From Camellia lanceoleosa (Eukaryota > Streptophyta > Magnoliopsida > Ericales > Theaceae), in assembly GCA_025200525.1 (NCBI GenBank), contig CM045763.1:157982246-158046245 (forward strand): 64,000 bases of DNA. The letters are read 5' to 3'. A program made the position numbers and the translations under genes. The notes under the pieces were generated by a model. That model saw only the letters and a list, made by a program, of their open reading frames with translations. It was not told the DNA's origin and did not search any database. Shown here piece after piece: positions 22,677 through 47,800 of the stretch (position 1 is the first letter of the stretch; each line of letters begins with the position of its first letter).

Positions 22677-22991
22677 ATAAGTATCGACATGGATTGCAAT
22701 GGTCCCATTATCACCACTATCGCCATCACTATTGCTACTACCAACGCCACAATCCCTTTACCACCACTACCACTGCTACAATCTCCCTCACTATTGTCAT
22801 CATTGCTACACATACCACCATCGTTTCACTATCACCACTCCACGGTCATTGCTATATCGCCTCCACTATCGATGCTACCATTACCACAACTAACACCTCC
22901 TCTCCACCATTATTATTACCACAACTATCACTACCCTCTATCTCCTCCACCATCGTCATTAGCCCTCCATCACTACCAGTGGCAATTGTAG
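22677..22991. repeat. Cryptic trinucleotide repeat (ACC/ACT/ATC), copy 2
   Basis: Same tract as 9935-10249, open in three plus frames, with a handful of base changes. It is compositional, not a gene. Confidence 0.7.
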
Positions 22992-23304
22992 GAATTTTTT
23001 TAGGGTGTTCACTGTGGATACTCCAATTAATTAATTAAGTAATTAATTTTTTTCAGGGTAGACATTTAAAAAATTATTTTTTGGGTTTTCAAATCACACA
23101 CAAATAAATAAATAAAATAAATTTCTAATATATTGATATCTTTGTTTCAAAAAATAAAATGTAGATACACAGATTTACATAACTATATTTTGTTTTTATC
23201 ACTAGCATGATAAAAAAAAAAAATGAAGAAGGCTCTTTTAATTCAAATTGAGATGAACTATATAATTGCTGATCAATATTAACATTCAAGTGGTACATTT
23301 GTTG

Positions 23305-23781
23305 TGTTAGGAAATATAGATGATTTTTCACAAGTGTAAATCAATCGAAGGAAATAAAAACTAATGTAGAAGAATTAAATTAACAACGACACAATAATTT
23401 TTACGTGCTTCCCTCAATGTGAGGTATATCCAGGGGACCGTAATTTGATTCTACTATCAACCAAGAGTTTGCAAACGAGACACGAATGGTCTCACAACCA
23501 CCCTTAGGTGAATTCCAAATAATCACAAATAAATATGAGAAAAGACCTCACAAAATAGATGATCAAATTGTATTCAAACAAGTTGTAGAAGACTCAAAGT
23601 AATATACCCAAATCAGGCCTAAAAATGAGTGCCGAAATACTCCAAAAACTATTCTACAAAGCAGAGTCGAAACAGAACTCGAAACTTCACAATAGAGAAA
23701 TAGCAAACAAACGGGGCACCTAAGCTTGGACTTGAATACACAACACTAAGCCTTGTATATGTACCGAATTGGATTACACAG
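23305..23781 (-). mobile_element. Copia LTR piece split by the Tat insertion, left part
   Basis: It starts TGTTAGGAAATATAG and ends at ttacacag, where the Tat element begins. The sequence resumes after the Tat element at 56764 (taagcttatatcg), next to a minus-strand copia pol. The pre-insertion reading was ...ttaCACAGtaagctt.... LTR identity is inferred from this position and from a typical copia-LTR motif near 23388. Confidence 0.5.
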
Positions 23782-25428: not shown

Positions 25429-26541
25429 TTTCTCACAAGTCCACTGGGGAGGCTGCTTTGTTGATGGTTTATATCCATAGTGGCTTACATATATCACTGG
25501 AAAAGATGCCAGAGGATGAAGTTAAGCAACACCCACGGTAGCAAGGTTCTTCCAATGGTAGAACAACACATGCTGAGGATCATGACCATAGTGTTGTGGT
25601 CGAGGCAGTTCAGTTATTTTAGGATGTGCAGAGGGAGATCCTACAGCTTTACAAACTCTCATCGAAGCTACTATGGCCATGGCATCCAGACCAGCTCCAG
25701 TGCAGACACTTCCGCCTGTAGCAGTCCCAAACCCAGTGCCTAATCTGTTGCCTAAGAATCAGGCTCTGATCTAGGTGCCTCCGGGAGTACCTCAGGCGAA
25801 TGGTACGACTACTGGTTTAGCTACCTAGGAGTAGACTGGTCCGTTCCAGCCCACTTACTTCGTTACTCTAGCTGACGTACATGCTAATATGCTATGCTCA
25901 AGCAAGAGCATAGCAAGAAACATCTACCATCTCTCCCTTATCCGGATGTGAAACCTCTATACTCTCAAGAGATATTGGTCATGCCATACCCAACTGGCTA
26001 TATAAAGTTTGATTAGAAGCAAGGTAATGCTACAGAACATGTGGTGAGGTTCATTGAAACCCTTGGTGTCCATGGTAGTGACCACCCTCTGCGCCTTCAG
26101 GAGTTCTATATAAAGTTCTTCCAAGTCTAAGAGAAAGTCACAACCCTCACACTTGGGTGAGACATCCAAAAAAAAGGTGAGGATATACTGGACTATGTCA
26201 AGCGGTTCCAGGATAAGGCCATTGACTGTTATGAACTAGTAGATGAAGCCCACTTAGTCAGTATATGTTTGGAGGGTGCCATACGCAACTATAAGATTTT
26301 CTTGGTAAACCATAATTTGCCTACCTTTTCAGCCTTGGTTGAGGCAGCTAGAAACCTTAGTACCACGGGTCCTTTGCATAGATCTCACAACAGTCACCGT
26401 TACTCTCGTAGTAGCAGAGTTGCTACGGTAACCTCCGTAAGAGGGAGCTGCTTGTCCTCCCGGAAAAGGAAGAGTTATAAGGACAAAAACCCATATCCTT
26501 GTAGCCTTGAGAATGTTAAAGCCTGGTTAAAGAATGGGTAG
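25429..26541 (+). pseudogene. gag: Tat gag, N-terminal and core, frameshifted
   Basis: Gag forms the virus-like particle of the retrotransposon. The first ~700 bases after the LTR give only broken frames. From about 26173 one plus frame reads GEDILDYVKRFQDKAID and, from 26269, LEGAIRNYKIFLVNH, in the order expected for the capsid-type retrotransposon gag domain of plant gypsy elements. It ends in a Lys/Arg-rich tract and a stop at 26541. Several stops and frame changes upstream make it inactive. Confidence 0.75.
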
Positions 26542-26543
26542 CC

Positions 26544-27074
26544 GATGGCAAACTTACCTTACCTCCAGTTAATGTTCCCTCAACCAAGAAAGACAAAGAA
26601 AACCCAGATTATTGTGTCTATCACAGAGCCACTAGACACCCTACCAAGGACTGCTGGACTTTGAAAAGTATCTTTAAGAAGAAAGTTATTGCAAATGAGC
26701 TGAAGTTCAAAGATGTTGGTAACCGTGATGGAAGAAAAGACCCCTATCCTAACCACAAGAAGAAAGGGAAGAATGTACATATGATTGGGTATCTTGGGCC
26801 TGTGCGCGATCAAGTGCACATGGCATCCTACTATGACGAGTTAGAAGAAATCGCAACAGGCCAGCTTCCTGAGACAGTACCTGCGGAGGCAAAACTCATA
26901 GAGGATACCTATGCTCAAGCTTTACCAAACTCTGTTAAGTTTCGTACCTTCTTTGACCAGCTGGGGCTGAGCCAAGCCACCAAGTTAGAAGCAACAAATG
27001 CACTCATCAACATCTCTGAAATGCATCATACTGAAGTTGTTGAGGCTAAGGAGTATTTGCCTCGGCGTATTTAG
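26544..27074 (+). pseudogene. gag: Tat gag C-terminal region with zinc knuckle variant
   Basis: The frame opens with a Cys/His cluster near 26610-26660 (YCVYHRATRHPTKDCWTLK), which has the C-x2-H-x4-H-x4-C pattern usual at this place in Tat elements. About 130 more residues follow before a TAG stop at 27072-27074. The protease continues in the same frame past this stop, so a single nonsense change separates them. Confidence 0.75.
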
Positions 27075-27422
27075 GAAGACTATGGGGCCATTACTTTGTC
27101 AGAAGCAGATAGAGCATACCCATTCCCCTATAACAGTCCTCTTTTTGTCACAGCTTACATCTATAATATAGAATTTAAGCATGCTTTCCTTGATGGCGGA
27201 GCATCCATAAACATCATCAATATCAACACCTTTGCAAAAGCTGGTATCCTAGAGTCCAGGATGTTCTGCCAACCCATTACTGTGACGGGCATTGGTGGTG
27301 AGAAAAAGGTTACTAAGGGCCATGTTGTAGTGGACTTAGCAATTGGCGAGATCCACTCAGCAACTAAGTTTCATGTGATTGAAGCAGACACAAATTATCG
27401 CATGATACATGGCAGAGCTTGA
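27075..27422 (+). pseudogene. Tat aspartic protease
   Basis: Retroviral-type aspartic protease that would cut the polyprotein. The active-site segment FLDGGASINIININ is present near 27187-27228, and ITVTGIGGEKK and VVDLAIG follow in the expected order. DGG in place of D(S/T)G is common in this lineage. The frame stops at 27420-27422, and 27423-27978 is a degenerate spacer full of stops leading into the reverse transcriptase. Confidence 0.8.
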
Positions 27423-27978: not shown

Positions 27979-28625
27979 TTGATAACACTACTGAAGCGGT
28001 ACAGTGACGTCTTTGCATGGACATATGACGAGATGCTTGGCCTTGACCCATCTCTTGGCACATATCACCTTAACACTTTTCCTAACTCTAAGCCAATAAA
28101 GCAGCATGCTCGAAAATACCACCCTGATCTTGAGGCAAAGATTAAAGAAGAGGTAGAAAAGTTGCAAAGGGCCAAGTTCATTGAGCCTATACAGTACCTA
28201 ACTTGGCTAGCAAACGTTGTGTCTATAAAGAAGAAGAACGACCAAATCAAGGTCTGCGTAGACTTTCGTGACTTGAATAAGGCCTGCCCAAAAGATGAGT
28301 TTCCATTGCCACATGTCGACACACTTGTCAATTCTACTGCAGACCATCATATGTTCTTCTTCATGGATGGTTTTAATGGTTATAACCAGATAAAAATGGC
28401 ACCAAAAGATGTAAAAAAGACAACTTTCAGAACATCCTTGGGAAATATTTTCTATACAATGATGCCCTTTGGTTTGAAAAACGCAGGGGCAACCTAGTAA
28501 TGGGCCGTGACTGCAGTATTCCACGGCATGTTACATCATGAAGTAGAAGTGTATGTGGATGATTTGGAAACCGGCACCTCTGCGACTTGGAAAAAGTTTT
28601 TTAGTGTTGTCGAAAATTCTATTTA
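27979..28625 (+). pseudogene. Tat reverse transcriptase
   Basis: It would copy element RNA into DNA. Fingers and palm motifs run in order: DVFAW, KYHPD, KEEVEKL, FIEPIQY, a WLANVV segment, VCVDFRDLNKACPKDEFPLP, MDGFNGYNQIKM, FRTSLGN and MPFGLKNAGAT. Two consecutive stops (28494-28499) interrupt it just before VFHGMLHHEVEVYVDDL, which holds the catalytic YVDD box at about 28551-28562. Bases are missing after that box, so the following thumb lies in another frame. Confidence 0.9.
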
Positions 28626-29400
28626 AAGATGAACCCTCTCAAGTGTGCCTTCGGAGTTACTGCAAGAAAGTTCCTTGGTTTCTTGGTATACCAATGTGGT
28701 ATTGAAGTAGACAGGGATAAGATCAAGTCCATCATGGAGATGCCACCGCCACACTCTCAAAAAGCTTTGAAGAAATTCCTAGGTAAAGGGTCATACCTCA
28801 GGAGGTTCATTCCAGCCCGTGCCGAGATAACCTTTTCCTTTGGGACACTGCTAAAAGGGAATCATAAGTTTGAATGGCTACAAGAACACCAATATACATT
28901 TGATATGGTGAAGAAAGTACTTATCTCACCACTTACAATGATTGCCCTACAACCTGAAAAGCCTTTGCGACTGTACCTTACCTCTACACCTCGGTCTATT
29001 AGAGCTTACTTGTCCAAGACATAGATAGCGTTGAGAAGCCAGTCTATTACATCAGCCACACAATCAATGGTGCTGAATCACGATATACACTAATTGAGAG
29101 GCACTGTCTGGCCTTAATCTGCACAGCGCAGAAGTTGCGCCATTATTTTTTGGCACACCCGATCCAGGTTGTGACCAAGAGTGATCCAGTCCGTTATTTA
29201 CTGAGCAAGCCCGCTCTGACTGGAAGAATGACAAGATGGCTTTTGGCTTTAGCAAAATATGACTTCACTTGTATCACGCCCAAGGCTATTAAGAGCCAAG
29301 CACTTGCATACTTGCTAGCACAATTCCCATTTGGTGAACATGAACCTGCAGAGATATCCCTACCTGGTGAGGTCCATGTCTCAGCAATCGAAGTTGAAAC
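28626..29400 (+). pseudogene. Tat RT thumb and first RNase H domain
   Basis: Open from 28629 with LNP-like start, KCAFGV, FLGFLVYQCGIEVD, ALKKFLGKGSYLRRFIP and FEWLQEHQYTF, the usual connection between RT and RNase H. It breaks at 29022-29024, then resumes with VYYISHTING, LIERHCLALI and LRHYFLAHPI, matching the gypsy RNase H. The frame then runs on without a stop from 29135 into the second RNase H. Confidence 0.85.
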
Positions 29401-29710
29401 TTATTTTGATTTAAAATTTGATGGAGCCCCTAGGGCTGGGAAAGGTGGAGCTGGCATAACACTTACTATTCAAGAGGGGAAGAAGTTCCATTTGTCGTAC
29501 AAGCTTGATTTTGAATGTTCCAACAATGAGGCTGAATATGAGGCGCTAATACTGGGTTTGATTGTTGCCCAAAAGAAAGGCCTCCACAAGTTGAAAATTT
29601 GGGGTGACTTCAAGTTAGTTGTCAAACAAACACTGGGTGATTTCGCTTTGAAAGAACCTTTTTTTGGCCCCATATCGCACCATAGTTCAGAAATTGCTCA
29701 CTCAGTTTGA
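29401..29710 (+). pseudogene. Second, archaeal-type RNase H domain (Tat lineage mark)
   Basis: LKFDGAPRAGKGGAGI, FECSNNEAEYEALILGL and LKIWGDFKLVVKQ give the three acidic-motif blocks of RNase HI: FDG, NNEAEYEAL and GDFKLV. A second RNase H after the gypsy RNase H is the known mark of the Tat lineage (Ogre, Retand and relatives). A frame change follows near 29705, and the next segment carries HNHFLDALATL in another frame. Confidence 0.85.
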
Positions 29711-30335
29711 CGATGTCCAAATCTAGCACACTCCTCGAACACAACCATTTCCTCGATGCCTTGGCTACACTGACGGCAAAGGTGGATATACCAAATGATA
29801 ATATAGCCATCGTCATCGTGAAAATAACAATACTAGCAGTGTTCGCCGAAGGACATATAAAGCAATATGCTGAGGGATGGAAAGTAGATATAATCCAACA
29901 GCTGAAAACAGACCAAGGAACAATCAGACCAGCAGAACTTGCATCATTCTTGCTTCTCAGAGGTGAGTTGTATTTTCCTGGTCCCAACAACTTGTTAGCA
30001 AGGTGCGTTGGTAGACAAGAAGCAACTTATAGACTTAAGTAGATCTATGCTAAGTCTTGCGGAGATAGAGATATCAGTCTATACTGATGGATGCAGAGGT
30101 AAGGGTTATTAGCCAGAGATGGAAAAGGAAAGTATTAAGTTGCAGAGGCAATGTGCAAATTATCAATCCTATTCTAAAGAAGAGGAAGCCCATTTCTTAA
30201 GTAGTGAAGAATGGAAACAACCATATATTGACTATCTTGGAAACGGCACACTTCTTGAGAACAAAGTTGATGCAATCAGAGTTAAGAAGGGGGCCCTCCG
30301 CTTCTTCCTTGACTAAAACAAACTGTACCGAAGAA
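29711..30335 (+). pseudogene. Tat spacer between RNase H and integrase
   Basis: Segments open at 29707-30042 and 30119-30316 hold the degraded linker found between the two domains in this lineage (DALATLTAKVDIPND near 29755). It has at least three frame changes. No independent function is expected. Confidence 0.6.
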
Positions 30336-31435
30336 GCTTTGAACGGGCACCTTTGGCGTGTTTATCAAAAGATGAGGCAAATGAAGTGCTGAGCGAAGCT
30401 CACTAGGTAGAGCATCAAGGGGGGAAGCGACTATATGGACACCCTATCCACCTTGGCTACTACTTGCCGACAATGGATGAGGACACAAAAAACTTTGTGA
30501 GAAGATGCCAGTCTAGTCAGAAGTTTAGGAACTTAATACATACTCCGAAAGTTGAGCTGCACAACATTAAGACCCCTTACTCGTTTCATACTTGGGCATT
30601 CGATTTGGTAGGTCCTATAGTGCAGTAATCCAAAGGCCACAGATGGATACTTACAGCGACTGAAGTTAGCACCAAGTGGGTAGAGGCCATATCAATAAGG
30701 AAAGCAGACAGAGCTAGAGTGGCCAACTTCATTAGGGAAAGCATCATCTGTAGGTTTGGCATACCGAAGGTGATGTTGTTTGACAATGGAACTTCCTTCG
30801 CAAATCACCATGTGGGAAGGTTGGTGGACGACTACCAAATCAAGCATCACAAGTTTACTCCATACTATCCTCAAGGGAATGGACAAGATGAGGCAACCAA
30901 TAAAACTCTTATCCAAATATTGAGCAAGATCATGGACAAAGCATGGGGCACATGGTCTGAACAACTCCCCGTAGCTCTCTGGGCATATAGAACATCAAGG
31001 AGGAAACTGACCTAGGCAACCCCATTTTTCCTAGTGTACGAATCTGAAGCTGTGTTACCAGTTGAGTTGGTAGTACCCTCAGCAAGAATGGCTATCTCGG
31101 CACACTTAGTTCCAGACAACAAAAGGAACGATATAGAGGCAGTCGAAGAAAGAGGAGATCGGGCCTCGCGGGCAATGAAAAAGTATCATCAGCCCATAGC
31201 TCGTGCTTACAATCAGTCTGTTCAGCATAGAGAATTTAAAAAGAGGGATTTGGTATGGAAGATGATAGATGCAATCATGCGGGGGCAACCAATCCCCAAG
31301 TTCTCACTAAGATGGGAACACCCTTACAAAGTTCCTACGACAAGTAGCAGTGGGTATTACAAGTTGACAAGAGTAGATGACAAGTTCAAAACTAGCCCAA
31401 TCGATGCTAAGTATGTAAAGGAATATTTTCCTTAA
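30336..31435 (+). pseudogene. Tat integrase
   Basis: It would insert element cDNA into the genome. The N-terminal zinc region appears as EVLSEAH, HLGYYLPTMDEDTKNFVRRC, with the final Cys pair changed to Ser. The catalytic core has FDLVGPI (first Asp), MLFDNGTSF (second Asp) and GNGQDEATNK with the third acidic residue about 35 residues later. The C-terminal part (31034-31435) is open and ends EYFP then TAA. Stops lie at 30416, 30626 and 31013. Confidence 0.9.
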
Positions 31436-31812: not shown

Positions 31813-32246
31813 TCAAATTAAACCCTTCATCAGGGAGTTCATCAAAGTCACATCTCGAGGCAACTGAGTGACAAGAGCGGAGTCTTTCTCCTTGAACCGA
31901 GCTAGGTTATGACGGTGCTGCTCTAAAGCACACTCACAGTCTCTGATGGTCTCTTCCAAGGAGGCAATCATAGCCACATTATCTGCGTGCTCAAGAAAAC
32001 CATCAATTGCTTGGAGCCTGGTCCTTTTCCATGATAAGTCCAAACCATTCCTTTCAAAGCCAATAAGATTTGCCTCATCACTCTCTACAAACTTGTCAGA
32101 AGTTGTCAGAAACTTTTTGGTGGCGAGGTTACGAATGAAATTGGCAAAGGACTCCAAAAGTGTTGTCTGCACCATCGGGCCTAGAACATTGAAAGCAATA
32201 AATGTGCTAGGGTGTAATGCCTGGATGCAAACAAGGATGGGAGTAG

Positions 32247-34630
32247 TGTAACAACCCTCGTACTGATTACCGTTAAACCACTGAATTACCTACTGATCAT
32301 TGCTAAACTGAACTGCTAATGACTGATAAGTGAACTGGATGAACTACTGAACAAACTGAATGAAACTGAAATTGAAACTGAATGAGTTTGTCTATTTAAT
32401 TACATATTGCATCTGTTGACTTATGTGATTATCTGTTTGATTCATATGTTTAAACTGTAAATTGAAGGCCTTATCGGCGGCCGATTTAGAAACCGTTTGA
32501 TGTTTTAGACTCAGTAGAATATTTGTGATTTAATGATGTATTTATCTGAAAATTGATTAGGAATGATTAAATTAGATTAAATTAAGTCAATTAAAGAGTT
32601 TGTCTTAATTACCGAATTGCCACTTAATGGCCACTACATCACACACACACTTAGAGACTTGTTTTCATTGTGATCAAACATTTCATCAGCTCATTCTTTC
32701 CCCTAACCGACCAACAAGAGAGCTTAGAGAGAGAGAGAGTTCATCTTGAAGAATTAAGCTCAAATTGTTAGAATTGCTTGGAGAATTGAAGTGGTTGCTA
32801 GGAAATTGTCAACTTAAGCCTCCAAAACTTGTAATTGGAACTCTAGGTAAGGAATCATCTTCTTATTGTTGTCCTTGAGCTAAGTTTTGCATGATTCATG
32901 CATCATTGTAGAGCTAAGACATGATATTGTTCATATATGTTGGATTGAAGTCAAATTCATGCATGCATGTTTATATTGGTGAGTTTGAAGTTGAGTTCAT
33001 GGCAATTTGTCACATGCATGTTCATGATATTATTATAGTCCATGTTTTCAACTGGCTTTTCAAGGAATTGAGCTCATTTGAGCATGATTGGAAGCTTGAA
33101 ATTGGTTTAAAGATCATGCATGTCATGTTTTGAAAGTGTTCTTGAAAATGGTTTGAAATTGAGTTTAATTGAAACACCCTTGGGCCTTGATTTCTTAAAT
33201 TGAGTTTTAGAACTTGTTATTCTATGTGTTTGAAAGAGTTTTCCAGAAAATGGGCCCAAGAGGATCGGATTTGGAGCATCAAAACTTGGTTTGAAACTCA
33301 GAGGTCGAATATGGAATTTCCAGATTTTGGACGTCCGCTCGAGCGGGGGGAAGTGCCGCTCGAGCGGGGAATGCATGCTCCCAGTATTTTCCTTGCATTG
33401 TTTCTGATCCGCTCGGCGGTTTTAACGCCGGCGGAAAATCGCACATCCAAAGATTTTTGCACCTTTCATCATCCGCCGGCGGCGGAATGTACGCTTCGGC
33501 GTGGCCTTTGTGTGCTTGTCCGCCGAAAGGGAAACTCGCGAAAGGAGGCCCTGTTTCATCGAAAATTCTGAAATTGTTTTCTAAGTGCATTTTTGCATCC
33601 CCATCGCATCCTAGGCATTCCTAGGCCTAGTTTAGAGCATCTTAATGAGGATGTAGACATAGAACCACACCGAGGAATTTAGGGATTTGATTATCATCCT
33701 TTCCAACTGTAAACTTAGTGTGTGTTCTATTTGATTATGTTTAGGGTTGGCTCTGGGACAGCTCTAGCTACTGATAGCCCAATCACTGTGAGTAACAGAT
33801 TGTGTAAAGATATGTTCAAATGGTTTTATTTTGAATACTGAATCGAATCGCTTATTGAATCGATATTGTTTATTGAATGAGCGTATGTCTGTATTTGAAT
33901 CGTATTGGCATCCTTAGCACCTTGTTATTGATTCTGAGCTCATCGGTTTCCTTGTGGAACCATCTTGATTGATGGCCATCATTATTGTTAGGTGCATAAG
34001 GCCGGTCCTTTGGACCCTCTTGTTTATAGGCTAATGGATGTACCGCATATGGTGATTGATTGAAATCTTGATTGGTGAAATCTTGAAAGATTGAAATCTT
34101 GTATAATGAATTGATTTCATTCTTTGTAGGACATTCATTCATAACCTCTTTACCTTGTATGTTATTCATCGGGCTTTAGCTCACTGTTTATATATATATG
34201 TAGGTACTCACCACCGCACCCGGAGCTAGGAGCGTGGGATTGGTCCCCGATTTGTCACCGACCTTTGTGCCTCCTTTGTGAGGTTCGAGACGCCATGCCA
34301 TGGCTTGGGGTGTTTTTGTGTCCCCATAGGTCTCCTTCTTGTTTTGTCTTGTTTTGTATAGACCATTCTTTGTTATCTTGTCTTGTTATAGAGGATTAAG
34401 TTCGTCTTGAATGTCTGTAATGATTGTGTATACTGTACTGGTAGTGAATGCATAAATGTATGAAAAATGTTTTTGGCATACAGATTAACACAGCTCTATG
34501 GAGACTAGTTTTTTGCTTTTGGCTTCCGCCAGCCGAACTCTGTATTTCTTGTATTCTTGATTGGTGCCTTGGTAATCTCGGATTCTTGGCGATGGTGCTA
34601 AACCCATAGGGTCGGGTTTGGGTCGTGACA
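32247..34630 (+). mobile_element. Tekay 5' LTR
   Basis: 2384 bases, TGTAACAACCCTCG to GGGTCGTGACA. It has palindrome pairs at 33336/33357, then four damaged ones between 33408 and 33545. A T/A run 'tttatatatatatgtagg' at 34187-34204 is a candidate TATA region. No protein-coding content is expected; frames such as 32921-33133 are by-products. Confidence 0.9.
33336..33545. promoter_or_regulatory. Palindrome cluster in the Tekay 5' LTR, mostly damaged
   Basis: Two intact CGCTCGAGCG copies start at 33336 and 33357 (21 bases apart). Where the 3' LTR has further CGCTCGAGCG copies, this LTR reads ccgctcggcgg, acgccggcgg, tccgccggcgg, cgcttcggcg and ccgccgaaagg: the central TCGA or GA is missing each time. 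Confidence 0.8.
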
Positions 34631-34633
34631 GAG

Positions 34634-34645
34634 TGGTATCAGAGC
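34634..34645 (+). other. Tekay primer binding site
   Basis: TGGTATCAGAGC, an exact match to the common plant primer site for initiator tRNA-Met, three bases after the LTR end. Confidence 0.92.
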
Positions 34646-34834
34646 GATACTTAACCACGAGTTATACCGCACACACGTGTCCAAATGAGCTATAGGGTGT
34701 CCTAGAAAAGCAAATAGGGCATCTCATGAATTTGAAAAGTGTGTGCTTATGACTGACTGATTATATGTTAAAGTGTTAAACTGTTTAATTGTACAACTGT
34801 TTATAATGATAACTGTTATAACTGCTATAGTGAA

Positions 34835-35499
34835 ATGGATAATGCAAATGAAACTGAAGCATCATCCTCTGAGGCCAGAATGGCCAGACTTGAACAAATG
34901 ATGGGACTGATAATGGAAAGACTAGAACAACAACCGAACATTTCACCTCCTCCTCCTCGGTCTGGCAAAAACGAGAATGTACAAAATGTGAATGCTAATG
35001 AGGTGGACATTATTATTTGACTTCGAAATTTAGCAAAATGAAACCGCCGTCCTTTCAAGGAGGCTTAGAACCGTTAGAGGCTGAAGCTTGGGTTCTTGAG
35101 ACCGAAAAGTTGTTTGAGGTTTTTCCGTGCTCTGAAGCAAACAAAGTTTTGTTGGCAACCTTCACCCTTCAGGAAGAAGCCAGAAGGTGGTGGATGTTGA
35201 CCCGTGATGCAAATGCCATTCTGACTTGGGCTCAGTTCAAGGAGTCCTTCTTTGAAAAGTATTTCCCCCAGTGCATTAGAGACAGAAAAGTGACTGAGTT
35301 TGAACAGCTGAGACAGGGCAAAACATCTGTTGCCGAGTATGAGAAGCAATTTACTGAACTTGCTAGGTATGCACCACATATGGTGGATACCGATTATAAG
35401 AAGGCCAGGAGGTTTGAAGGCGGCCTTAGTGTTGCTATCCAGGACCAGATAAATGTTTTGAAAATGCCAACTTATGTAGGTGTTCTCGTAGGGCATTGA
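34835..35499 (+). pseudogene. gag: Tekay gag
   Basis: Capsid polyprotein. It starts ATGGATAATGC at 34835 with an acidic, Pro-rich N-terminus (residues 1-60), then a one-base frame change near 35015. The core follows: FSKMKPPSFQGG, EAEAWVLETEKLF, ARRWWMLTRD, FKESFFEKYFP, EFEQLRQGKTSVAEYEKQF and RFEGGL, the standard plant retrotransposon gag domain. It breaks at 35497. A damaged Cys/His knuckle (HCSICGNKHKG region) is near 35670-35730. Confidence 0.88.
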
Positions 35500-36290
35500 T
35501 GGCGAGACAAATATTGCGGCGATGAAACAATCAAACACCGACAAGTGAGTGGCAAGGAAAAGACAGGGTTTTAAATTTAAGAAGGGTAAGCATAACCCGT
35601 GAATAAGAAGCGAGAATACGGGTCGACTACTAGCTGACCAAGGGAGTGGATTTACTCCACTGTTCCATATGTGGCAACAAGCACAAAGGGGTTTGTTACT
35701 GTTTCGAGCTTGTTTCGTGTGGCAAGGTGGGCCTGAATCAAAGATCGCCCTTCGCCCCGCCAGTAAAGTAGTAAGCCGCACCAAGCAAAGATCAAATGTA
35801 GCACCAAAACCGAACCCCAAAGCTACAGGAAAGAGACTATGAGGCAGGCAGTGTTTGCCCTAATCTGGGAGGCGTGCAAAACTCTTGAGACCGGTGTCGT
35901 ATCCTCTCTATCTGTGCTCAGAATGCTTATGTATTGATTGATTCGGGGTCTATACATTCTTATGTGTCGCATGCTTTTTCGCGTAAATTGAATAGACCCT
36001 TAGAACCCATGAACTACTTGTTAGCTGTATCATCACCTGTTGGGGGATCCATGACATGTGCATATATGTATCTTGCTTATGAGATTATTGTTGGGGATAT
36101 GCACCTATTTATTGATTTACTGCCATTGAACATAGACCATTTTGATGTAATATTGGGGATGGATTGGCTACAAAAATATCATGCCACTATAGACTGTGTA
36201 ACAAAACAAGTAGTGTTCGCCCACCGGTTTGCGAATTTGTGTTTAATGGGAGGAGTAGTACCTCCTCCATATCGATTTCTTCTATAAAAG
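35500..36290 (+). pseudogene. Tekay zinc knuckle and aspartic protease
   Basis: 35500-35930 is a poorly preserved zinc-knuckle and linker region with missing bases. The protease is open at 35934-36287: MIDSGSIHSYVSHAF carries the active-site DSG, then PLEPMNYLLAVSSPVGGS, and DHFDVILGMDWLQKYHATIDC, the closing block of gypsy proteases. The frame is lost again at 36287. Confidence 0.85.
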
Positions 36291-37151
36291 GCTGTCAAAT
36301 TGATTAGAAAGGGTGTAAAGGATATCGTGTTCTGTATTATGCACACGCTAATGATAATGTTAAACCGATGTGAATTGTATTCCTATAGTCGAGAATTCCC
36401 GGATGTATTTCGGATGAATTGCAGGATTTGATTGGCAGGAAATTGAATTTATTGTGGATGTGGTTCCGGTACCCGGTAGGCATCTAAAGCTCCTATAGAA
36501 TGGCTCCAACCGAATCGAAGAATTGAAGGTACAATTGCAGAAGCTGTTAGACAAGAAGTTTATCGACCGATACTTCACCGTGGGTGCACTGTTTTGTTTG
36601 TAAAGAAGAAAGACGGCTCCGAGGCGTGCATTGATTACCGTGAATTGAACAAGGTAATCAGAAGAATAAATATCCATTACCGCGTATTGATGATTTATTT
36701 GACGATGTGGTGCACAAGTGTTTTCCAAAATTGATCTTAGATCGGGTATCACCAATTGAAAGTCAAACCGAAGACATTGATAAAGCCGCTTTAAGCGAGG
36801 TATGGCCACTTTGAATTTTTAGTTATGCCGTTCGAGTTACGAATGCCTGCCGCATTTATGGACCTCATGAGCAGAATTTTTAAACCATACCTTGACGATT
36901 TTATTGTGGTATTTATTGATGACATCTTGATCTATTCTAAGCGTAGAAGAACATGAACATCATCCGAGACTTGCCTGCAAACCTTAAGAGAATGTAAACT
37001 GTATGCTAAACTGTCTAAATGTGAATTTTGGCTTGATCATATAATGTTTTTGGGACATGTTGTTAGCAAAGATGGAATTTACATGACCCGAGAAAATTGA
37101 AGGCAGAGTGAATCGCCTAGACCAACGAATGTAACCGAAGTCCGAAGCTTT
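36291..37151 (+). pseudogene. Tekay reverse transcriptase, many small gaps
   Basis: Recognisable pieces in alternating frames are LDKKFI (36547), FVKKKDGS (36594), CIDYRELNKV (36628), YPLPRIDDLF (36670), FSKIDLRSG (36724), [10 protein letters not shown] (36803), [29 protein letters not shown] with the catalytic IDD (36850-36940), [11 protein letters not shown] and [10 protein letters not shown]. More than ten one- to several-base losses break the frame. The flanking parts (gag core and RNase H) are almost clean, so the damage is strongly clustered. Confidence 0.85.
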
Positions 37152-38444
37152 TTGGGACTGGCTGGATATTACAGAAGGTTTGTCAAAGATTTCTCCAAAA
37201 TTGCCTTACCACTGACTCAGTTGACGCAAAAAGGGATATCATTTGACTGGACTGACCAGAGGGAATCAGCATTTCAGGAACTGAAAACCCGACTTGTGAC
37301 TGCACCGATTTTGACTCTACCTTCAGGTACGGATGGTTATACTGTTTTTAGTGATGCTTCTCACAAGGGTTTGGGGTGTGTTTTGATGCAGAATGGGAGA
37401 GTTATTGCCTATGCTTCCCGACAGTTGAGACCACATGAAAAGAACTACCCGACCCATGACCTAGAACTTGCTGCAGTAGTTTTTGCACTGAAAATTTGGC
37501 GTCACTATTTGTATGGAGCAACATGTGAAGTGTATACTGACCACAAGAGCCTGAAGTACTTTTTCACTCAGAAAGAACTGAATATGAGACAGCGGAGATG
37601 GTTGGAACTGATCAAAGATTATGACCTACAGATATTGTATCATCCGGGAAAAGCCAATACCGTCGCCGATGCTTTGAGCCGAAAATCGATTGGGAACTTA
37701 GCCTGTTTGTTGACTGGACAGAAAGAGTTGCTTCTTGATCTGGAAAAGTCTGAAATTGAAATTGTATTGAAAGAACAAGGTGGAACCTTAGCTGCTATTT
37801 CTGCTCAACCAGCATTGATTGAGGAAATTAAAGAAAAACAACAATTAGATGATTTCTTGAAAAAGGTTATTGAAGAAAGAGATTCAAAACCGAGACCGGG
37901 GTTCAAATTTGAGAACAATGTTCTGAAATTCCAAGACAGACTATGTGTACCGAATGACACTGAATTGAAAAGGAGAGTTCTGCAAGAAGGCCACAGTTCG
38001 AAGTTTTCTATTCACCCAGGGAATACGAAAATGTACCAAGATTTGAAACAGAATTTCTGGTGGCCAGGAATGAAGAAAGAAATTGCCGACTTTGTGTCTA
38101 AATGTCTTCACTGCCAACAGGTCAAGGCTGAACATCAACGACCTGCAGGCTTACTGCAACCCTTGCCCATACCAGAGTGGAAATGGGAGCATATCACGAT
38201 GGATTTTATCGTTGGACTACCTCGCTCCAGGAAAGGTATGGACTCTATTTGGGTTATTGTGGATAGACTGACTAAATCTGCACACTTCCTACCTGTCAAG
38301 ACAATTTTTAATGCGGATAGATTGGCTGTTATCTATATTGATGAAATTGTGAGATTGCATGGAGTGCCTGTATCTATTGTTTCTGACAGGGATTCGAAGT
38401 TTACAGCAGAGCTCACTGCATTGGCATCGAATTGGTTTGAGTAG
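37152..38444 (+). pseudogene. Tekay RT end, RNase H and first half of integrase
   Basis: One open frame of 430 residues. It opens [14 protein letters not shown] (end of RT). RNase H follows: [55 protein letters not shown] and the closing [14 protein letters not shown]. The integrase zinc finger is [19 protein letters not shown], and the core shows [13 protein letters not shown] (first Asp) and VSDRDSKFT (second Asp). The frame ends at a stop created by a small loss at about 38405-38440, before the catalytic Glu. Confidence 0.92.
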
Positions 38445-39270
38445 TGCCTATCACCCTCAGACAGATGGACAGTCAGAAAGGACCATCCAGACTCTAGAGG
38501 ACCTACTGAGAATGTGTGTCCTTGACTTTCAGGGAAATTGGGAAAGTCATTTGCCGTTGGCTGAATTCGCCTACAACAACAGCTACCATTCGAGTATTGG
38601 AATGGCGCCTTTCGAGGCATTGTATGGCAGAAAGTGTAGATCTCCAATCTGCTGGGCAGAAGTTGGAGATGGGCCTTTGCTTGGGCCCGAGATTGTTTAT
38701 GAAACAACTGAGAAAGTGAAATTGATACAGCAAAGACTGAAAACTGCACAGAGTAGACAGAAAAGTTATGCAGATATCAGAAGACGGGATAGAGAGTATG
38801 AAGTGGGTGATCACGTGTTTGTGAAAGTGACACCAATGAAAGGCCAGACTCGCTTTGGAGTCAAAGGCAAGTTAGCACCGAGATATGTCGGACCGTATCA
38901 GATTATTGAGAAGATCAATCCGGTGGCGTATCAAGTTGCGCTCCCTCCTGAAATGGAGCATATGCATAACGTCTTCCACATTTCGATGTTGAGAGACTAT
39001 CTTCGAGATCCGTTTCATGTGATTGAGCCTACCCGTATCGTGTTGAGTGATGACTACACTTACGAGGATCGGCCTATACAGATTGTAAACCGACGGATCA
39101 AGAAACTGAGAAACAAAGAGATTCCACTAGTGAAAGTTGACTGGCAGAACCATGGTGGTGTGTATGCCACTTGGGAAAGGGAAGATGACATGGCTAGGCG
39201 ATATCCGGATTTGTTCCCGCTGAATCCTGTTTTCTTCCAGACTGAAGGTAACTCGAGTTTAGAGGACTAA
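38420..39270 (+). pseudogene. Tekay integrase second half with chromodomain-like tail
   Basis: The frame resumes with [16 protein letters not shown] (catalytic Glu in QSE) and runs to the natural stop at 39268. [19 protein letters not shown] marks the integrase C-terminal domain. From about residue 250 [10 protein letters not shown] and [17 protein letters not shown] form the chromodomain-like tail that defines chromoviruses and is thought to guide insertion toward heterochromatin. The frame upstream of 38420 (from 38359) is a shadow. Confidence 0.9.
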
Positions 39271-39274
39271 ACTC

Positions 39275-39288
39275 CTTATAAGGAGGGG
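39275..39288 (+). other. Tekay polypurine tract
   Basis: The purine run AAGGAGGGGAA follows the stop codon. It would prime plus-strand synthesis. The LTR sequence after it begins 28 bases inside the LTR. Confidence 0.8.
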
Positions 39289-41667
39289 AAACCACTAAAT
39301 TACCTACTGATCATTGCTAAACTGAACTGCTAATGACTGATAAGTGAACTGGATGAACTACTGAACAAACTGAATGAAACTGAAACTGAAACTGAATGAG
39401 TTTGTCTATTTAATTACATATTGCATCTGTTGACTTATGTGATTATCTGTTTGATTCATATGTTTAAACTGTAAATTGAAGGCCTTATCGGCGGCCGATT
39501 TAGAAACCGTTTGATGTTTTAGACTCAGTAGAATATTTGTGATTTAATGATGTATTTATCTGAAAATTGATTAGGAATGATTAAATTAGATTAAATTAAG
39601 TCAATTAAAGAGTTTGTCTTAATTACCGAATTGCCACTTAATGGCCACTACATCACACACACACTTAGAGACTTGTTTTCATTGTGATCAAACATTTCAT
39701 CAGCTCATTCTTTCCCCTAACCAACCAACAAGAGAGCTTAGAGAGAGAGAGAGTTCATCTTGAAGAATTAAGCTCAAATTGTTAGAATTGCTTGGAGAAT
39801 TGAAGTGGTTGCTAGGAAATTGTCAACTTAAGCCTCCAAAACTTGTAATTGGAACTCTAGGTAAGGAATCATCTTCTTATTGTTGTCCTTGAGCTAAGTT
39901 TTGCATGATTCATGCATCATTGTAGAGCTAAGACATGATATTGCTCATATATGTTGGATTGAAGTCAAATTCATGCATGCATGTTTATATTGGTGAGTTT
40001 GAAGTTGAGTTCATGGCAATTTGTCACATGCATGTTCATGATATTATTATAGTCCATGTTTTCAACTGGCTTTTCAAGGAATTGAGCTCATTTGAGCATG
40101 ATTGGAAGCTTGAAATTGGTTTAAAGATCATGCATGTCATGTTTTGAAAGTGTTCTTGAAAATGGTTTGAAATTAAGTTTAATTGAAACACCCTTGGGCT
40201 TTGATTTCTTAAATTGAGTTTTAGAACTTGTTATTCTATGTGTTTGAAAGAGTTTTCCAGAAAATGGGCCCAAGAGGATCGGATTTGGAGCATCAAAACT
40301 TGGTTTGAAACTCAGAGGTCGAATATGGAATTTCCAGATTTTGGACGTCCGCTCGAGCGGGGGGAAGTGCCGCTCGAGCGGGGAATGCATGCTCCCAGTA
40401 TTTTCCTTGCATTGTTTTACAGTCCGCTCGAGCGGGGTTTTTAACGCTCGAGCGGGAAAATCGCGCATCCAGCATTTTTGCACCTTTCATCAGTCCGCTC
40501 GAGCGGCGGAATGTACGCTCGAGCGTGGGCCTTTGTGTGCTTGTCCGCTCGGCGGGAAACTCAAGGCCGGCGGAGGCCCTGTTCACTGAAAATTCTGAAA
40601 TTGTTTTCTAAGTGCATTTTTGCATCCTCATCGCATCCTAGGCATTCCTAGGCCTAGTTTAGAGCATCTTAATGAGGATGTAGACATAGAACCACACCGA
40701 GGAATTTAGGGATTTGATTATCATCCTTTCCAAATGTAAACTTAGTGTGTGTTCTATTTGATTGACTGTTTAGGGTTGGCTCTCGGGGACGCGCTCTAGC
40801 TACTGATAGCCCAATCACTGTGAGTAACAGATTGTGTAAAGATATGTTCAAATGGTTTTATTTTGAATACCGAACTGAACTGCTTATTGAACTGATATTG
40901 TTTATTGAATGAACGTATGTCCTGTATTTCGAATCAGACAGGCATCCTTAGCACCCATTGTTATTGATATTCTGAGCTCGCCGGTTTCCTTGTGGAACCA
41001 TACCGATTGATGGCCATCATTATTGTTGGGTTCATAAGGCTTGGCCCTTTTGGACCTCTGTTTATAGGCTAATGGATGTACCGCATATGACGATTGATTG
41101 AAATCTTGATTGGTGAAATCTCGAAGATTGAAATCTCAGATAATGAATTGATTTCATTCTTGTAAGGACATTCATTCATAACCTCTTTACACCGTATGTT
41201 ATTCATCGGGCTTTAGCTCACTGTTTATATATATATGTAGGTGCTCACCACCGCACCGAGCTAGGAGCGTGATTGGTCCCCGCTTTGTCACCAACCTTTG
41301 TGCCTCACTTGTGAGGTTCCGAGACGCCATGCCATGGCTTGGGGTGTTTTTGTGTCCCCATAGGTCTCCTTCTTGTTTTGTCTTGTTTTGTATAGACCAT
41401 TCTTGTTATCTTTGTCTTGTTATAGAGGGATTAAGTTCCGTCTTGAATGTCTCAGTAATGATTGTGTATCTCAGATCGTAGTGAATGCATAAATGTATGA
41501 AAAATGTTTTTGGCATACGATTAACACTCTATGGACACTAGTTTTACTTGCTTTTGGCTTCCGCCAGCCTGAACTCAGATATTATCAGATATCGACAAGG
41601 CCTTGGTAATCTCGGATTCTTGGCGATTCTGATGCTAAACCCATAGGGCCGGGTTTGGGTCGTGACA
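39289..41667 (+). mobile_element. Tekay 3' LTR, lacking its first 28 bases
   Basis: It matches 32275-34630. The first 28 bases of the 5' LTR (TGTAACAACCCT onward) are absent. The first 1.1 kb is nearly identical to the 5' LTR; the last ~750 bases differ by clustered small changes (for example ctcagataatg against cttgtataatg, and atctcagatcgtag against atactgtactggtag). It ends GGGTCGTGACA before AGTAG. Confidence 0.9.
40350..40578. promoter_or_regulatory. Palindrome cluster in the Tekay 3' LTR
   Basis: CGCTCGAGCG starts at 40350 and 40371 (21 apart), 40425 and 40445 (20 apart), 40496 and 40516 (20 apart). A fourth pair near 40546 and 40566 has lost central bases (cgctcggcgg, ggccggcgg). Three intact pairs in a fixed register match the arrangement in the solo LTR at 10678-12817. 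Confidence 0.85.
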
Positions 41668-42570
41668 AGTAGTTTCAACAAGACCTAGTAGCTCAGAAAA
41701 GAAACTTTCTCTGAAGGCTATGAAGACTCTTTTATAGCATCACTAGCTTGAATCACTAGGGGGGAGACTTGTAGAGTAGCCAAAAGTTTGAGGGTGACGC
41801 ACCTCCCCTAAAGATGACTGCCTAGTAGTGTCGGAGTGAGTAGATGCTGGGAGGTGGCTAGGTGAACTGATCTCACGGGATAGGCCAAAATTTCCCGTAT
41901 CACCCTATCGGTCCGAGAAAAGATCGTCCATGTGGTAGTCTCCAATATATAAATCTGGTGCAGTAGTGGTGTCCATCGTTGCATAAAAGTCTTGTGATTT
42001 TGCAAGATTAGTTGGCACCTTAGGAAAGTGAGTGGGGTATAGATCATCAAGCTGCTAAGAAGTTGTTGAGGCAACTGGGTTAGAAGTGCCAGTAGCAGTG
42101 GCACTAGGAGTGGCCAAGTTGGCAGTTACCTCTACAAGTTGAACCAAATTTGGGGGACCCACATCAGGAGTAGCCGCTACATCTACAACCCCTTCAGCAA
42201 CTGGGATGGTAGAAATTATGGTCTGCTAAACTAGGGGAGACTTGGTAGACTAAGAAGAATTTCCAGATCTGACCTTCATTGAGGGTGGCTCAACTTCAAG
42301 TGGCTCTCTTGCTCCATGCTCTTCTCTCGAGGTTTCAGGAACAAAATCCTCTCCACCAACGGAGGAATGCTCAGAGTGAATGGGATCAATAGGGTTTGGA
42401 GCTTCAGCACCCTCAACAATCATATCGCCCTTTGCAACTTCCATAGTAGGGGGGACTTGTCCACTTTCAGTAGGAGGGATGCCATGACCTTCTTCCATAT
42501 TTTCAGCCTCAGTGATCGGCTCAACCTCAACCATTGGCTCAACCTTAGCCATTGATTCATCATAGTGTAA

Positions 42571-42633
42571 CTATTAAAATAAAGATGAAAAAACCAAGTA
42601 TAAATGAGTGTAGAATATATACTAAGTGAGTAC
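42571..42633 (-). other. Intron of the antisense PMD gene
   Basis: On the minus strand GTACTCACTTAG..TTTTATTTTAATAG runs 63 bases, T/A-rich, GT to AG. Reading on would stop after three codons (TAG). Splicing joins CGA AAG to TTA CAC TAT GAT GAA in frame and opens the acidic linker. 63 bases is near the lower limit for plant introns. Confidence 0.7.
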
Positions 42634-44588
42634 CTTTCGAAGTCTTTTCCTAGTTAGTGAGGCACAACCCTCAGCAACTGATGCCGTTACCTCCTGGACT
42701 GCCCTTAGCCGAGAGCGAGTCATATGCACTATTGTACTGATAGGGGGAAGAGAGACTTACAGAGGTTGAACGGACATCGCCCTAGATGGATGAGGCTCCT
42801 CTATGGCAGACAAAAACAAAGTTTGAAATGGCAAAATAGGCTGGTTTGTTTCTCGTGACCGGAAGGGAGACGAAGAGATAAGTCAGGTTGTGGAATGGGT
42901 TACACTGCAGGGACAACTAGATCACTATTACCAAAGTTGAAAAATGAGTTGAGGTTGAGATGCCAAAATAGTTTATTGCTGGGGGTGAAGGCCCTTTCTC
43001 TCCAAAGTGAAGGTAACTCCATGAGGCCCAAACCCTCCACCAGTACGGCGGTGCAATCTTGAGCAAATCGTTGGAAACTCTACTGGTTGTCTAAAATGGA
43101 GGAGCATGTAGGATACCTTTTTCCACGCCGAATTGCCTAAGGACCCTGTCTAGTTGATAGACAATGTTGGACATGCCCTCTTCGTTCCATATTGGCAGGA
43201 ACCTAGGGCGTATCATGGTGGCGATAAGGAAAGAGTTGGTCTGGACACTGTCAAGAGAGAAGTCAACCTAGCAAGCCTTTAAGAAGTAGAAAGGAACAAT
43301 AGAAATGTCTAGAAAAAGTTGGGTGAAGGGGCGGAACACACAGTCCTCCATGCGATCAATGTAATCCACGAAAGGCATGTTAGTGCCAACACCAAACCAT
43401 CTGGAGACGCGAGGGAAGGAATTGTGTACTTGCCTTGTAACGGGTCATCCCTCTGCATCTAGAACAGGATGACCCTCTGCATCAAGAACTTCATCGGTGA
43501 AGAAAGGCTCATACTCCTTAGGGACGGGACCCATAGCAGGGAACCGCTCGTAAAAGAAAGCGGTCAGGAATTCAGTGTGCACAAAGCTCCATACATCTTA
43601 ACGACCCATGGACTTTTCCATGTGTGAGTGAATGAGGTTAGGATAGAAGTATAAATTCCCCAAAAATAAGGGAGCCAAAGGAATCTAATTGCTGCTACAG
43701 AGTTTGACGACAAGTGGAAACACCAAAGGGTTAATGGTCTTGACAGGGTTGTTGGGAAGAACGAAAAAAAAGATGAAATACCTGACAAATGCAACTAGGT
43801 ACAAGTTGCCACGGTAACCCAGGCCAACTATAGAGCTGTGGCTGCCTTCTATAATATCATCCACAACTGGTTGCATGTCCTTGAAAAAGTGTTTCAGCCA
43901 TGAGAGGTAGGTAGTCTTGTCTCTCTTTGGCCTTTCTTGGAGCAATTCTCCGGTCCTGGGATCATACCAAGAGCCATACTTTCGTGCCACTTGAAAGGCA
44001 CCTTGGAGAGCAGTAATGGTAGTTTTACTACGCACCAGTCAAGGATACAGGATCAAAAGGGTAGTCCCCACGGGTGCTCAAGCATAATAGGATAGCAACA
44101 TCCTCCAGAGTTGGGGTTATCTCCCCCCAAGCAAGAACAAAGGAATGAGTGTTGCGGGTCTAACGAGAAACAACCACATTCGTATTGGTTTGCACCTTGC
44201 GCATAGACAGCTCCCTCAAAATCAAAATAGCATTAAAGAGATGAACAGCCTCAAACGCTGCTCGAAGTCGTTGTTCGCAATGACGTCGTCGACCCAAAGG
44301 GACCAGTCGGCTAGAGGGCTTGAGTGAGTGTGGTAATAGATGTATGAATGGAAAAAGTCAGCGCGCTCAAACCCGGAACCGCAGCACTAAGATAGGGTTG
44401 ATCATGTTAGCATTGTCCAAGGAGGCCTCTTCAAAAGGGAGCAGGGGCTCTTCTAGAAAAGGGGCATTAGGAACAAAATAGTCAACAACCTTCCAAAATG
44501 GGTCGGCGAGCCCCCCAAAGTATGGGGCCCTTCTTCACTCAACACTGGTTAGGATAGCCCTGTCGACTAAAAACCTGGTGGTGGCCAT

Positions 44589-44720
44589 GAAGAAGAATAA
44601 AGAAAGGAGAAGAAGACTTTGGAAGGAGGGGATTAGAGAGAGAAGAAGACAAGAAGACAAGAAAATGGATTGTGGTGAAAGTGGGGGACCAGTGGACCCA
44701 GAGGGCAATATTTATAAAGA
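44589..44720 (-). promoter_or_regulatory. Promoter and leader of the antisense PMD gene
   Basis: On the minus strand TATAAATA lies at 44716-44709, about 120 bases before the ATG at 44588. The leader between is strongly pyrimidine-rich (repeated cttcttgtcttcttctctctct), a common plant 5' leader style, and the start context is cttcATGG. So the gene seems to carry its own promoter, independent of the LTR. Confidence 0.65.
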
Positions 44721-44891: not shown

Positions 44892-47800
44892 TGTAGATCG
44901 CCCGAACTTCCTCCGCTCGTCCCCCCTTTTAGAGAGGGCGCAGATTTGGTTCATGCTACTACAGTTCGGACTTCTGTCACGGTTCTGAATCTAATCTACC
45001 AAAGTACAATGCGAGACTGATAAACACCAAAGAGTCCAAATCCGGCAAATTGTTTTGGAAAATCGATTTTGAATAAAAAGCACCAAATATGGACTGTTTT
45101 GCCAGATTACAGAGTGGCCACCTAAATATTTTATTTTGAGAAATTTAGGAAACCCTGACTCATGCCTAAGGCCACGTGTCCGTCATCACCAAAGTTGCCT
45201 CGGCTCGGGAACTTGGGTACAAGAGGGGAAGGTCATGAAATGAGCACCCTCGCTCGCCCGATCAGAGGATCGACCTCTACTAAGCATGACATGTTGTTTT
45301 ATAAACCATGTGTTCTTATTCTGATTATTTAGCTAACTTACTACGTGATGCGCACAACATACAAGTATAGACTAGATCGCCTAAATTGGAACAAAACAAT
45401 TCAATGTTTGTTTTCGAAAATGATTTGAATTTGCCACCCTCAAGTGGACTTAGAAATGCGGATTTGCCACCTAACAAGGTAGGCTTAGAACATGATGATT
45501 TGCTACTCCAAGTGGGCTTAAAACTCACATTTCGATGAATTGTTCCAATTCAAGTAATGAAGCCTTCATCCATAGGCATTCATGTAGTTATATCAATTAA
45601 GCAAATAGCCTCATGGCAAGCATGCTATCATGGCAACACTCACACACATGCAAGTATGCTAAAGCGTAAACACTTACAGTGTACTCCAAGCCAAAACAGA
45701 GAACTAGTTAGAAATCATGCATGATCCTAGTTATGTTAAAATGCCTAATGCAACACATGGAAAAATGCAACTAAATAGATTCGGCTATCTAAGATGGCAT
45801 ATGAATGTAATGATTTGATGCACGTATTCAAATAGGTATTGAAAGTCAATGCAGTTTGAATGATGCGCTAAGCCCGATGCATGCAAGACAAATGAATGAT
45901 GCAAACATGCAAGAATAAGATATGCTAATTGAAAAATGACCCTAAACTAACCATCGAAAGCGGTTAAATAAAAGGGAGAAAGACGTGGGGTTGAAAGACA
46001 TTCACACACACACGCACACTTATTACAACATTGTGCCCTCTCGGAGGAGGGTCCAAATAGATAGGCTAAGCTATGCTAAGCTAAGCTATTTACTACAAAT
46101 CAACTAATTAACTACTCTAGCTAATTAATTATTACAAAACCGAATTGAATAACTAGCTACACTAAGCTAATTAATTACAAACCAAATTAATCAATTAGCT
46201 AATCTAAGCTAATTAGAATATTACAAAATAAACTAAGCTAAATTAATTACAGCACATGTAATTAAATACAACTAGCTAATGAAGCGATGAAAATGTCCTT
46301 GCAGACGAGAGAGGCATGCATGCTTGGTCGCGTCCTCTTGGAAATCCACTACCTTGCCTCTAAATGTCTCTGTTTGCACTCTTTTGAATTCTGAAAATTG
46401 TGCCAACCTCCAGATTGCTTCTGTTTGATCCCAGGAACATGCTGATGAATTGATCGACTAGAAGTGATGGCCATCGGCCAGTATTGGTGGCCGGTTGGCT
46501 AGGGGAGGTGGCCGGTCAGCCACTGAGTCCTGCAATTTCTCTTTTTGCTGCAACAGAGCAAAAACAGAGACATGGCAGTGTATTTGTAAGGAAATGTATG
46601 TGCAACTACCTTCCTTATCATATCTCAAGCTGAAAGAAGCATAGTACTCGGCTCTCAAGCCACCAACCACGCATTTCAATGCATGGTGGCCAAAGAGTCA
46701 AGCTTGCACAATATTAGTGAATGCACACATAAGACTCTAAGTATCGTCACTCTATCATGCATGATCAAGGGTGACAATGACCAAGAAGCGCAATACGATT
46801 CATCACTTTGAGTATGAAACGTGCCACATTTCTAGTATTTGGATTAACGTCCGTCCGATCCAAACACATGCAATGTAATACACATATGTTATCTTGGCAT
46901 GTTTTACTTTGCTCGATTCTTGTTTACACATTTTGCATTACCAATCCATTCTTTAATTGGTTAAGTCCAATATGCAAGTCCTCTAAGGAGAGAAGGTCAA
47001 AGAATGGTTTAAGGCATAGAAGAGACCATGCCTTTGACTAGGAAGAACCCCCAAAAGAGGGTTAAAGCCATTTAAGCATGAGCCTCAATCCCAAGCTCAA
47101 ACACAATCTCAAAGCCAAACAACCCTCAAATGAAATGGAAGAATGAAGAAATGAGGGAGGTGGCAGATGTTTAGTGTTGAAATGGCATGCTAAAGACCTT
47201 AAAGCATGCAAGCAATGCGAACATGGCATGTTGAGGACCAAAAAGATCAAAGCTAGTAAAGAGCAATACACAAGAGGCATGCAATACATAGCACAAATGT
47301 CCAAACCAGCCCTGGACAGAGCTTAATCATGCCAAAATAATGGCCTAAATATGCTGAAATGGGAGCTCAAAATGCTAGAAGAACAAGCACACATGTTGGC
47401 CTATAAGCAAGGCATAATATACAACCCTCAAAAGCTATAAAGAAGTGAAATATATGAGAGTGTGACTACACTATATGCACTGAAATTACATGCTAAATGG
47501 TGCCATACCATGCAAACATCTCATGCATAACATGTTAAAGGCCTCAAAACTCTAAGCTAGTCTAGGCCCTTTACATTACAACCATACTAAGCAATGCTCA
47601 AATGACCTTAACCACTCAAAATAGACCTAAGGTAGGTCAAAACAATAGCAGAAACATGCTAGACTTGCAACATAGATGGCAAGAAAAATAAGCTCATGTA
47701 TTGGCTCGCAAACAAGGCATGAGGTTCAACTTCTCAAAAGCATTGAAAGAGTGATACATATGAGAGTATGACAGTCATATATGCCCTGAAATCACATATT

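Follow-up and report, generated by a model that had tools for sequence, protein, structure and literature searches.

The 64,000-nucleotide (nt) stretch of Camellia lanceoleosa DNA analysed here (contig CM045763.1, positions 157,982,246–158,046,245; genome ~3.0 Gb; hereafter the window) contains one Tat-lineage long terminal repeat (LTR) retrotransposon, spanning 23782–56758, that carries a gene for a plant mobile domain (PMD) protein on its minus strand. The anatomy of the gene and the selection recorded in its copies strongly suggest an accessory gene resident in a Tat-lineage Ty3/Gypsy family, antisense to gag-pol and located between integrase and the 3′ LTR. In particular, the gene runs from 44588 to 31813, between pol and the 3′ LTR, and is split by a chromovirus insertion. 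In the order of transcription, its parts, all on the minus strand, are a TATA box (TATAAATA, 44709–44716) lying 128 bases upstream of the ATG (44588); exon 1, extending from the ATG to a splice donor, bearing the PMD, and interrupted by stops and frame changes (42634–44588); an intron remnant (42562–42633) with donor AAG/GTA at 42633, the 3′ end having been lost in a deletion of ~200 bases; the remaining part of exon 2, broken and encoding an acidic linker (41668–42561); and the end of exon 2, a conserved C-terminal open reading frame (ORF) running to the stop codon and separated from the rest by the chromovirus insertion (31813–32246).

The domain assignment rests on the Pfam PMD family PF10536, which matches the minus strand at 44031–44159 with 38.4 bits (cut-off 34.9) and, weakly, at 43688–44038 with 15 bits; the other 8 of the 10 window pieces scanned against Pfam gave no PMD match. 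An earlier note, made from the sequence of the window, had read a minus-strand PMD, a promoter motif about 120 bases before the ATG, a CT-rich leader, and an acidic linker from the letters, and each of these holds: the leader is visibly CT-rich, and the linker piece has 23% aspartate plus glutamate versus 6% lysine plus arginine. The tail, which the note described as charged, is not strongly so (13% aspartate plus glutamate, 11% lysine plus arginine). A 117-residue piece from the window had no homologs in a protein search. The window copy of the gene is dead, as the note had also said, because it has several frame changes and frequent stops, and the insertion at 32247–41667 that divides it is flanked by the duplication AGTAG.

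Comparison of 30 copies of the gene (L015–L044, window included), each with ~1.5 kb of flank, suggests that its position is a property of the family. In all four relatives whose pol flank was read (of 39 intended), pol lies opposite the gene and tail-to-tail with it; the integrase faces the 3′ end of the gene in each, accompanied in two by RNase H or reverse transcriptase. The window and these four relatives thus agree on the position of an antisense accessory gene, on the opposite strand between pol and the 3′ LTR. Of the 29 other copies, 16 have the C-terminal ORF (window 32235–31813) after the gene within these flanks. The ATG of the relatives is separated from the 3′ LTR boundary by ~330 bases, on the internal side of the element, and has the TATA box upstream; the junction of GGGGGCAAA with TGTAGAGGG at the start of the 3′ LTR recurs in relatives, and the leader is common to the copies as far as this boundary. 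The agreement in position, the shared leader, and a clade distinct from MULE-type PMDs make it extremely improbable that the gene is a relic, unrelated or MULE-borne, that inserted once and is irrelevant to the family, even though MULE-type PMD loci are common in the C. lanceoleosa genome.

The promoter site and the splice donor are the conserved points of an otherwise variable region. Specifically, TATAAATA is kept in 26 of 29 aligned leaders and exceeds every other leader 8-mer in conservation (0.974 vs a mean of 0.817), while the ATG is kept in 23 of 29 aligned copies. Diversity is 0.018 in the TATA box and 0.013 at the donor, as compared with 0.226 in the leader, 0.233 in the intron, and 0.21–0.23 on either side of the TATA box.

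Comparison of the copies indicates a single phase-0 intron of ~92 bases, with exon 1 comprising ~653 codons and exon 2, provided that it is itself uninterrupted, ~490; donor, acceptor, and phase are conserved, as expected of a spliceosomal intron. The earlier note had proposed a 63-base GT-AG intron; its donor stands, and its 3′ end does not. The donor GT is present in 27 of 28 aligned copies, and AAG/GTA in 26 of 28. At the 63-base site (42571), AG is found in 17 of 28 copies, the window among them (16 of 27 relatives); in the 16 of 26 examined relatives that have AG there, splicing at this site would leave exon 2 without a stop for 180 bases in 7 copies and bring the linker into frame in 6, roughly as often as expected by chance. 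With an alternative acceptor, which follows a polypyrimidine tract ~92 bases from the donor (range 83–110), exon 2 has no stop for 180 bases in 19 of 24 copies, and the linker reads in frame in 21 of them. These 24 are the copies in which the acceptor could be located, whether intact or as a mutated remnant; L026 and L037, where the site is unrecognisable, and L043, which has other sequence there, were left out. The motif (C/T)AG is kept at the ~92-base site in 17 of 27 relatives. Directly after 42562, ~200 bases that are found in relatives, including the ~92-base site, are absent from the window, so that the true acceptor of the window copy has probably been deleted.

The codon-position pattern of exon 1 indicates that the gene has been selected as a protein-coding sequence. 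We sorted the variants of 29 copies by codon position (L043 was dropped owing to an insertion; counts are uncorrected for relatedness), setting those private to a single copy against those common to at least three. Private variants number 273/273/235 at positions 1/2/3, and shared variants number 282/208/495 (chi-square 72, p = 2e-17 vs private); this test, used in place of dN/dS, contradicts the dN/dS near 1 that the earlier note had named as a sign against its proposal. Transversions alone give the same picture (private 135/138/135 vs shared 31/17/64, p = 6e-6), and a non-coding leader control of 28 rows is flat (48/45/40 vs 48/42/45, p = 0.83). The diversity of the tail ORF at positions 1/2/3 is 0.174/0.113/0.321 (17 rows). 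Shared variants rich in third positions, private variants that are not, and a flat control are most simply read as purifying selection in active lineages followed by neutral decay once a copy had inserted.

The stops in the copies bear the mark of that decay. Of 204 in-frame stops, 126 are TAG, and 125 pair by a single change with a commonest codon TGG, CAG, CGA, or CAA; stops are most frequent at positions that usually read TGG or CAG. They thus appear to be mostly explained by C-to-T or G-to-A changes, the pattern expected from deamination of methylated cytosine.

Several observations weigh against this account of a selected, spliced gene. The exon-1 segment 42882–42634 has no third-position excess (0.252/0.201/0.246), and in the tail the private variants, too, are third-position rich (35/36/57), leaving a weak contrast between private and shared variants (p = 0.03). 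AG by itself is kept equally at the two acceptor sites (16 vs 17 of 27 relatives), so the choice of acceptor rests on phase, frame, and the pyrimidine tract. The copies compared are those closest to the window and not a random sample. Among the 30 copies none has a complete exon-1 frame, the longest reaching 407 of ~653 codons, and the fully open PMD copy beside Tat pol that the earlier note thought might exist was not seen among them. One more match in the genome, from a protein search, has ~400 residues without a stop.

The same codon-position evidence bears on an alternative in which the antisense RNA is the functional product, either because it pairs with the genomic RNA or because it gives rise to small interfering RNAs or phased small interfering RNAs (phasiRNAs), and the protein is incidental. 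Such a role for the RNA is considered in PMC7264820, and tea has 175 PHAS loci at PMD genes (PMC10673657), which may belong to another PMD class. Selection by codon position, an open exon-2 phase, and a conserved splice phase nevertheless indicate a protein, and we regard a purely regulatory RNA as improbable.

Phylogenetic analysis places the PMDs of the Tat elements at a distance from the host-like PMDs of the same genome. In a tree of 18 PMD frames of C. lanceoleosa, which is unrooted and carries a long-branch warning and unsettled bootstrap values, the Tat-element PMDs group together (100/100) on a stem of 1.68; a MULE-type group (100/99) stands separately, as do five weakly grouped (59/96) host-like genes. 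The latter (L001–L005) are long single-frame PMD genes of 626–782 codons, the label host-like denoting their long open frames alone, and the PMD of L025, one of the compared copies, is 22–26% identical to them. In the tree the element PMDs are located on the side of L001–L005, away from the MULE-type group. Nesting of the element PMDs inside host PMD genes, as expected for a captured gene of MAIN/MAIL type, was not observed in the tree.

The earlier note had proposed that the element captured a host-type gene together with its promoter. A recent capture of this kind is highly unlikely: the element PMDs form one distant clade, many diverged copies occur across all 15 large contigs, and PMD clades restricted to Gypsy elements are described as old (PMC5418596). 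What speaks for a capture is the gene-like anatomy, with TATA box, leader, and intron. In PMC5418596 the clades PMD-A1 and PMD-A2 are exclusively Gypsy-encoded, and the order of descent, host first or element first, is left open; the distant element clade in C. lanceoleosa fits these clades, as compared by description.

The wider search of the genome with the PMD family gave at least 183 matches (best 117 of 25021 candidates scored), the top-ranked being long host-like ORFs and other PMDs. Six loci taken from these matches, L009–L014, were set aside, having no tblastn match to the pol pieces of the window. They make up a separate abundant PMD class, many members of which break near profile position 181; in L011 and L012 an adjacent ORF resembles a MULE transposase by eye.

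We propose that transcription by RNA polymerase II yields an antisense mRNA of its own, which would then be spliced; barring additional introns, its product would be some 1,150 residues long, a very rough figure. Retrotransposition would leave the intron in place, since the sense genomic RNA should carry it as the reversed complement. The earlier note took the intron as demonstrating a spliced antisense mRNA, which over-states the case; the intron only implies such an mRNA. The protein may then act in the nucleus and in trans, competing with or binding host MAIN/MAIL1 with PP7L, and this competition or binding may weaken silencing of its own Tat family. That a nuclear, trans-acting PMD protein interferes with host PMD-based silencing is a tentative idea, and the mechanism step draws on the literature (PMC8616336, PMC5418596).

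Close behind interference with silencing ranks a replication helper, in which the PMD protein would aid the cycle of the element (nuclear entry, handling of RNA or cDNA, choice of integration site) and leave host silencing untouched. Conserved antisense genes of Tat relatives are discussed in these terms (the Grande gene23 protein is nuclear, and TRP28 is predicted to bind DNA; PMC7264820, PMC11963269), and selection by codon position is compatible with any protein function; against it, the PMD is the domain carried by host silencing factors (PMC5418596). We hold a helper role to be possible, if doubtful. More speculative still is the full proposal that Tat elements have long carried a spliced, LTR-independent antisense PMD gene acting in trans on MAIN/MAIL1/PP7L as the counterpart of a host silencing factor, and that phasiRNAs derived from host PMD genes may target it.

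The structure of the element itself supports the placement of the gene in the Tat lineage, as the earlier note had claimed. The 5′ LTR (23782–25428, plus strand, 1647 bases) has the duplication CACAG just before it, and the 3′ LTR (55115–56758, plus strand, 1644 bases) has GGGGGCAAA before it and CACAG after it, such that the duplication is present at both outer edges; the pair is 86.3% identical across 1641 aligned sites. The Kimura two-parameter distance between the LTRs is 0.156, corresponding to an insertion age of ~6–12 million years at rates of 1.3e-8 and 6.5e-9. The plus strand, opposite the PMD gene, bears broken gag-like and protease-like frames (26161–27419, judged by eye and position) and a broken pol with reverse transcriptase, RNase H, a second RNase H (aRH), and integrase (27979–31432, by Pfam in the order RH-aRH-INT). 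RVT_1, RT_RNaseH, and RVT_3 exceed the Pfam cut-off, RVT_3 (aRH) with 36.5 bits, and rve falls below it (20.3 vs 32.6 bits). No clear primer site, which in Ogre would be for tRNA-Arg, was found after the end of the 5′ LTR at 25428 in the window.

A second RNase H is the mark of Tat elements, and its position between RH and INT is common to Ogre and Retand (PMC6317226). RVT_3 sits between RT_RNaseH and rve in the window, which identifies the element as a member of the Tat lineage of Ty3/Gypsy and is equally compatible with Ogre and with Retand. The presence of a PMD favours Ogre, given that 57% of Ogre elements have one (PMC6317226). PF04195 (TRP28) was absent from the Pfam matches of the 10 window pieces and 8 relatives' frames, which cover part of the gene.

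The window contains further insertions and rearrangements. The insertion that splits the gene (32247–41667, plus strand) is a chromovirus-type element with LTRs 94% identical and the 5-base duplication AGTAG on both sides; its chromodomain falls below the Pfam cut-off (20.3 vs 25.1 bits), and the name Tekay, given in the earlier note, is plausible. A second nested insertion of ~10.2 kb (44893 to ~55090, right edge approximate, strand unassigned) is located between the gene leader and the 3′ LTR; its two ends are alike in inverted orientation (77% over 344 bases), and related sequence occurs at window 14237–15220 and inside L031 and L033. The segments 14237–15220 and 45026–46058 had been considered as the Tat LTRs and were dropped once the pair 23782–25428/55115–56758 was found. 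The stretches 6334–14168 and 20572–24768 are 90–94% alike in pieces, and both hold a Tat LTR start (13179 and 23782) that follows the common flank GGATTACACAG; this shared flank suggests a local duplication later than the Tat insertion. A tandem-repeat array with many offset self-matches occupies 15778–17195.

Relatives of the gene are numerous in the genome. A DNA search with 42560–44650 gave at least 43 matches (best 40 of 427 candidates scored), 73–84% identical apart from the window itself, and a protein search with the frame of an open relative gave at least 103 (best 102 of 1244 scored), spread over all 15 large contigs. PF10536 exceeds its cut-off in 5 of 8 relatives' frames scanned (36.7–51.3 bits). 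The L025 frame matches one ENA protein, P0001 (230 residues, 67% identity, contig of 1.1 kb), which begins with MARTRF, the proposed start of the gene; no match to the PMD frame was found among solved structures at E up to 1. The 5′ LTRs of L016 and L037 were not found within the 6-kb stretches examined. On contig C13, many copies of the Tat PMD gene lie within ~1.3 Mb (~57.7–59.0 Mb), which may reflect a local expansion or mark a centromeric region.

Components of this arrangement have been described separately. A plant survey ranks the PMD first in frequency among extra domains (PMC9289625), counter-silencing by PMDs borne on transposable elements (TEs) has been proposed (PMC8616336; for MULE-borne PMDs, PMC5418596), and antisense accessory genes of LTR elements, one with its own promoter, are in print (PMC7264820, PMC11963269). 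Like the Gypsy PMD-A1/A2 (PMC5418596) and Ogre PMDs (PMC6317226), the C. lanceoleosa PMD belongs to a non-chromovirus Ty3/Gypsy element of an angiosperm and stands apart from host PMDs; unlike in those accounts, as far as they describe them, the gene is here characterised by strand, promoter, intron, and a selection test. It shares with maize Grande gene23 (Gomez-Orte et al. 2013, as described in PMC7264820) an antisense position between pol and the 3′ LTR and, to judge by the conserved TATA box, probably a promoter of its own; the gene23 protein is reported there to be nuclear. Proteins of the gene23 type have no clear known similarity (PMC7264820), whereas the C. lanceoleosa protein has a PMD and its gene an intron. 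The TRP28 genes of Retand (PMC11963269) are likewise antisense ORFs of the region between pol and the 3′ LTR in the Tat lineage; their domain is TRP28 (PF04195), and the terms PMD and intron are absent from the main text of that paper. Host MAIN/MAIL1 and MULE-borne PMD-C proteins have the same domain, the host members silencing TEs and the MULE copies being captures (PMC5418596, PMC8616336); they do not belong to LTR elements, and in the C. lanceoleosa tree the element PMDs form another clade. Searches of the open-licence literature gave no account of a Gypsy PMD gene that reports a promoter on the antisense strand, an intron, or a test of selection, and priority is uncertain.

The function of Gypsy-borne PMDs and the descent of host and element PMDs are named as open questions in PMC5418596. 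The conserved promoter site, the intron, and selection as a protein together suggest that the elements used the PMD gene, and the corrected junction, from the donor to the acceptor at ~+92, makes antisense expression checkable in existing RNA data.

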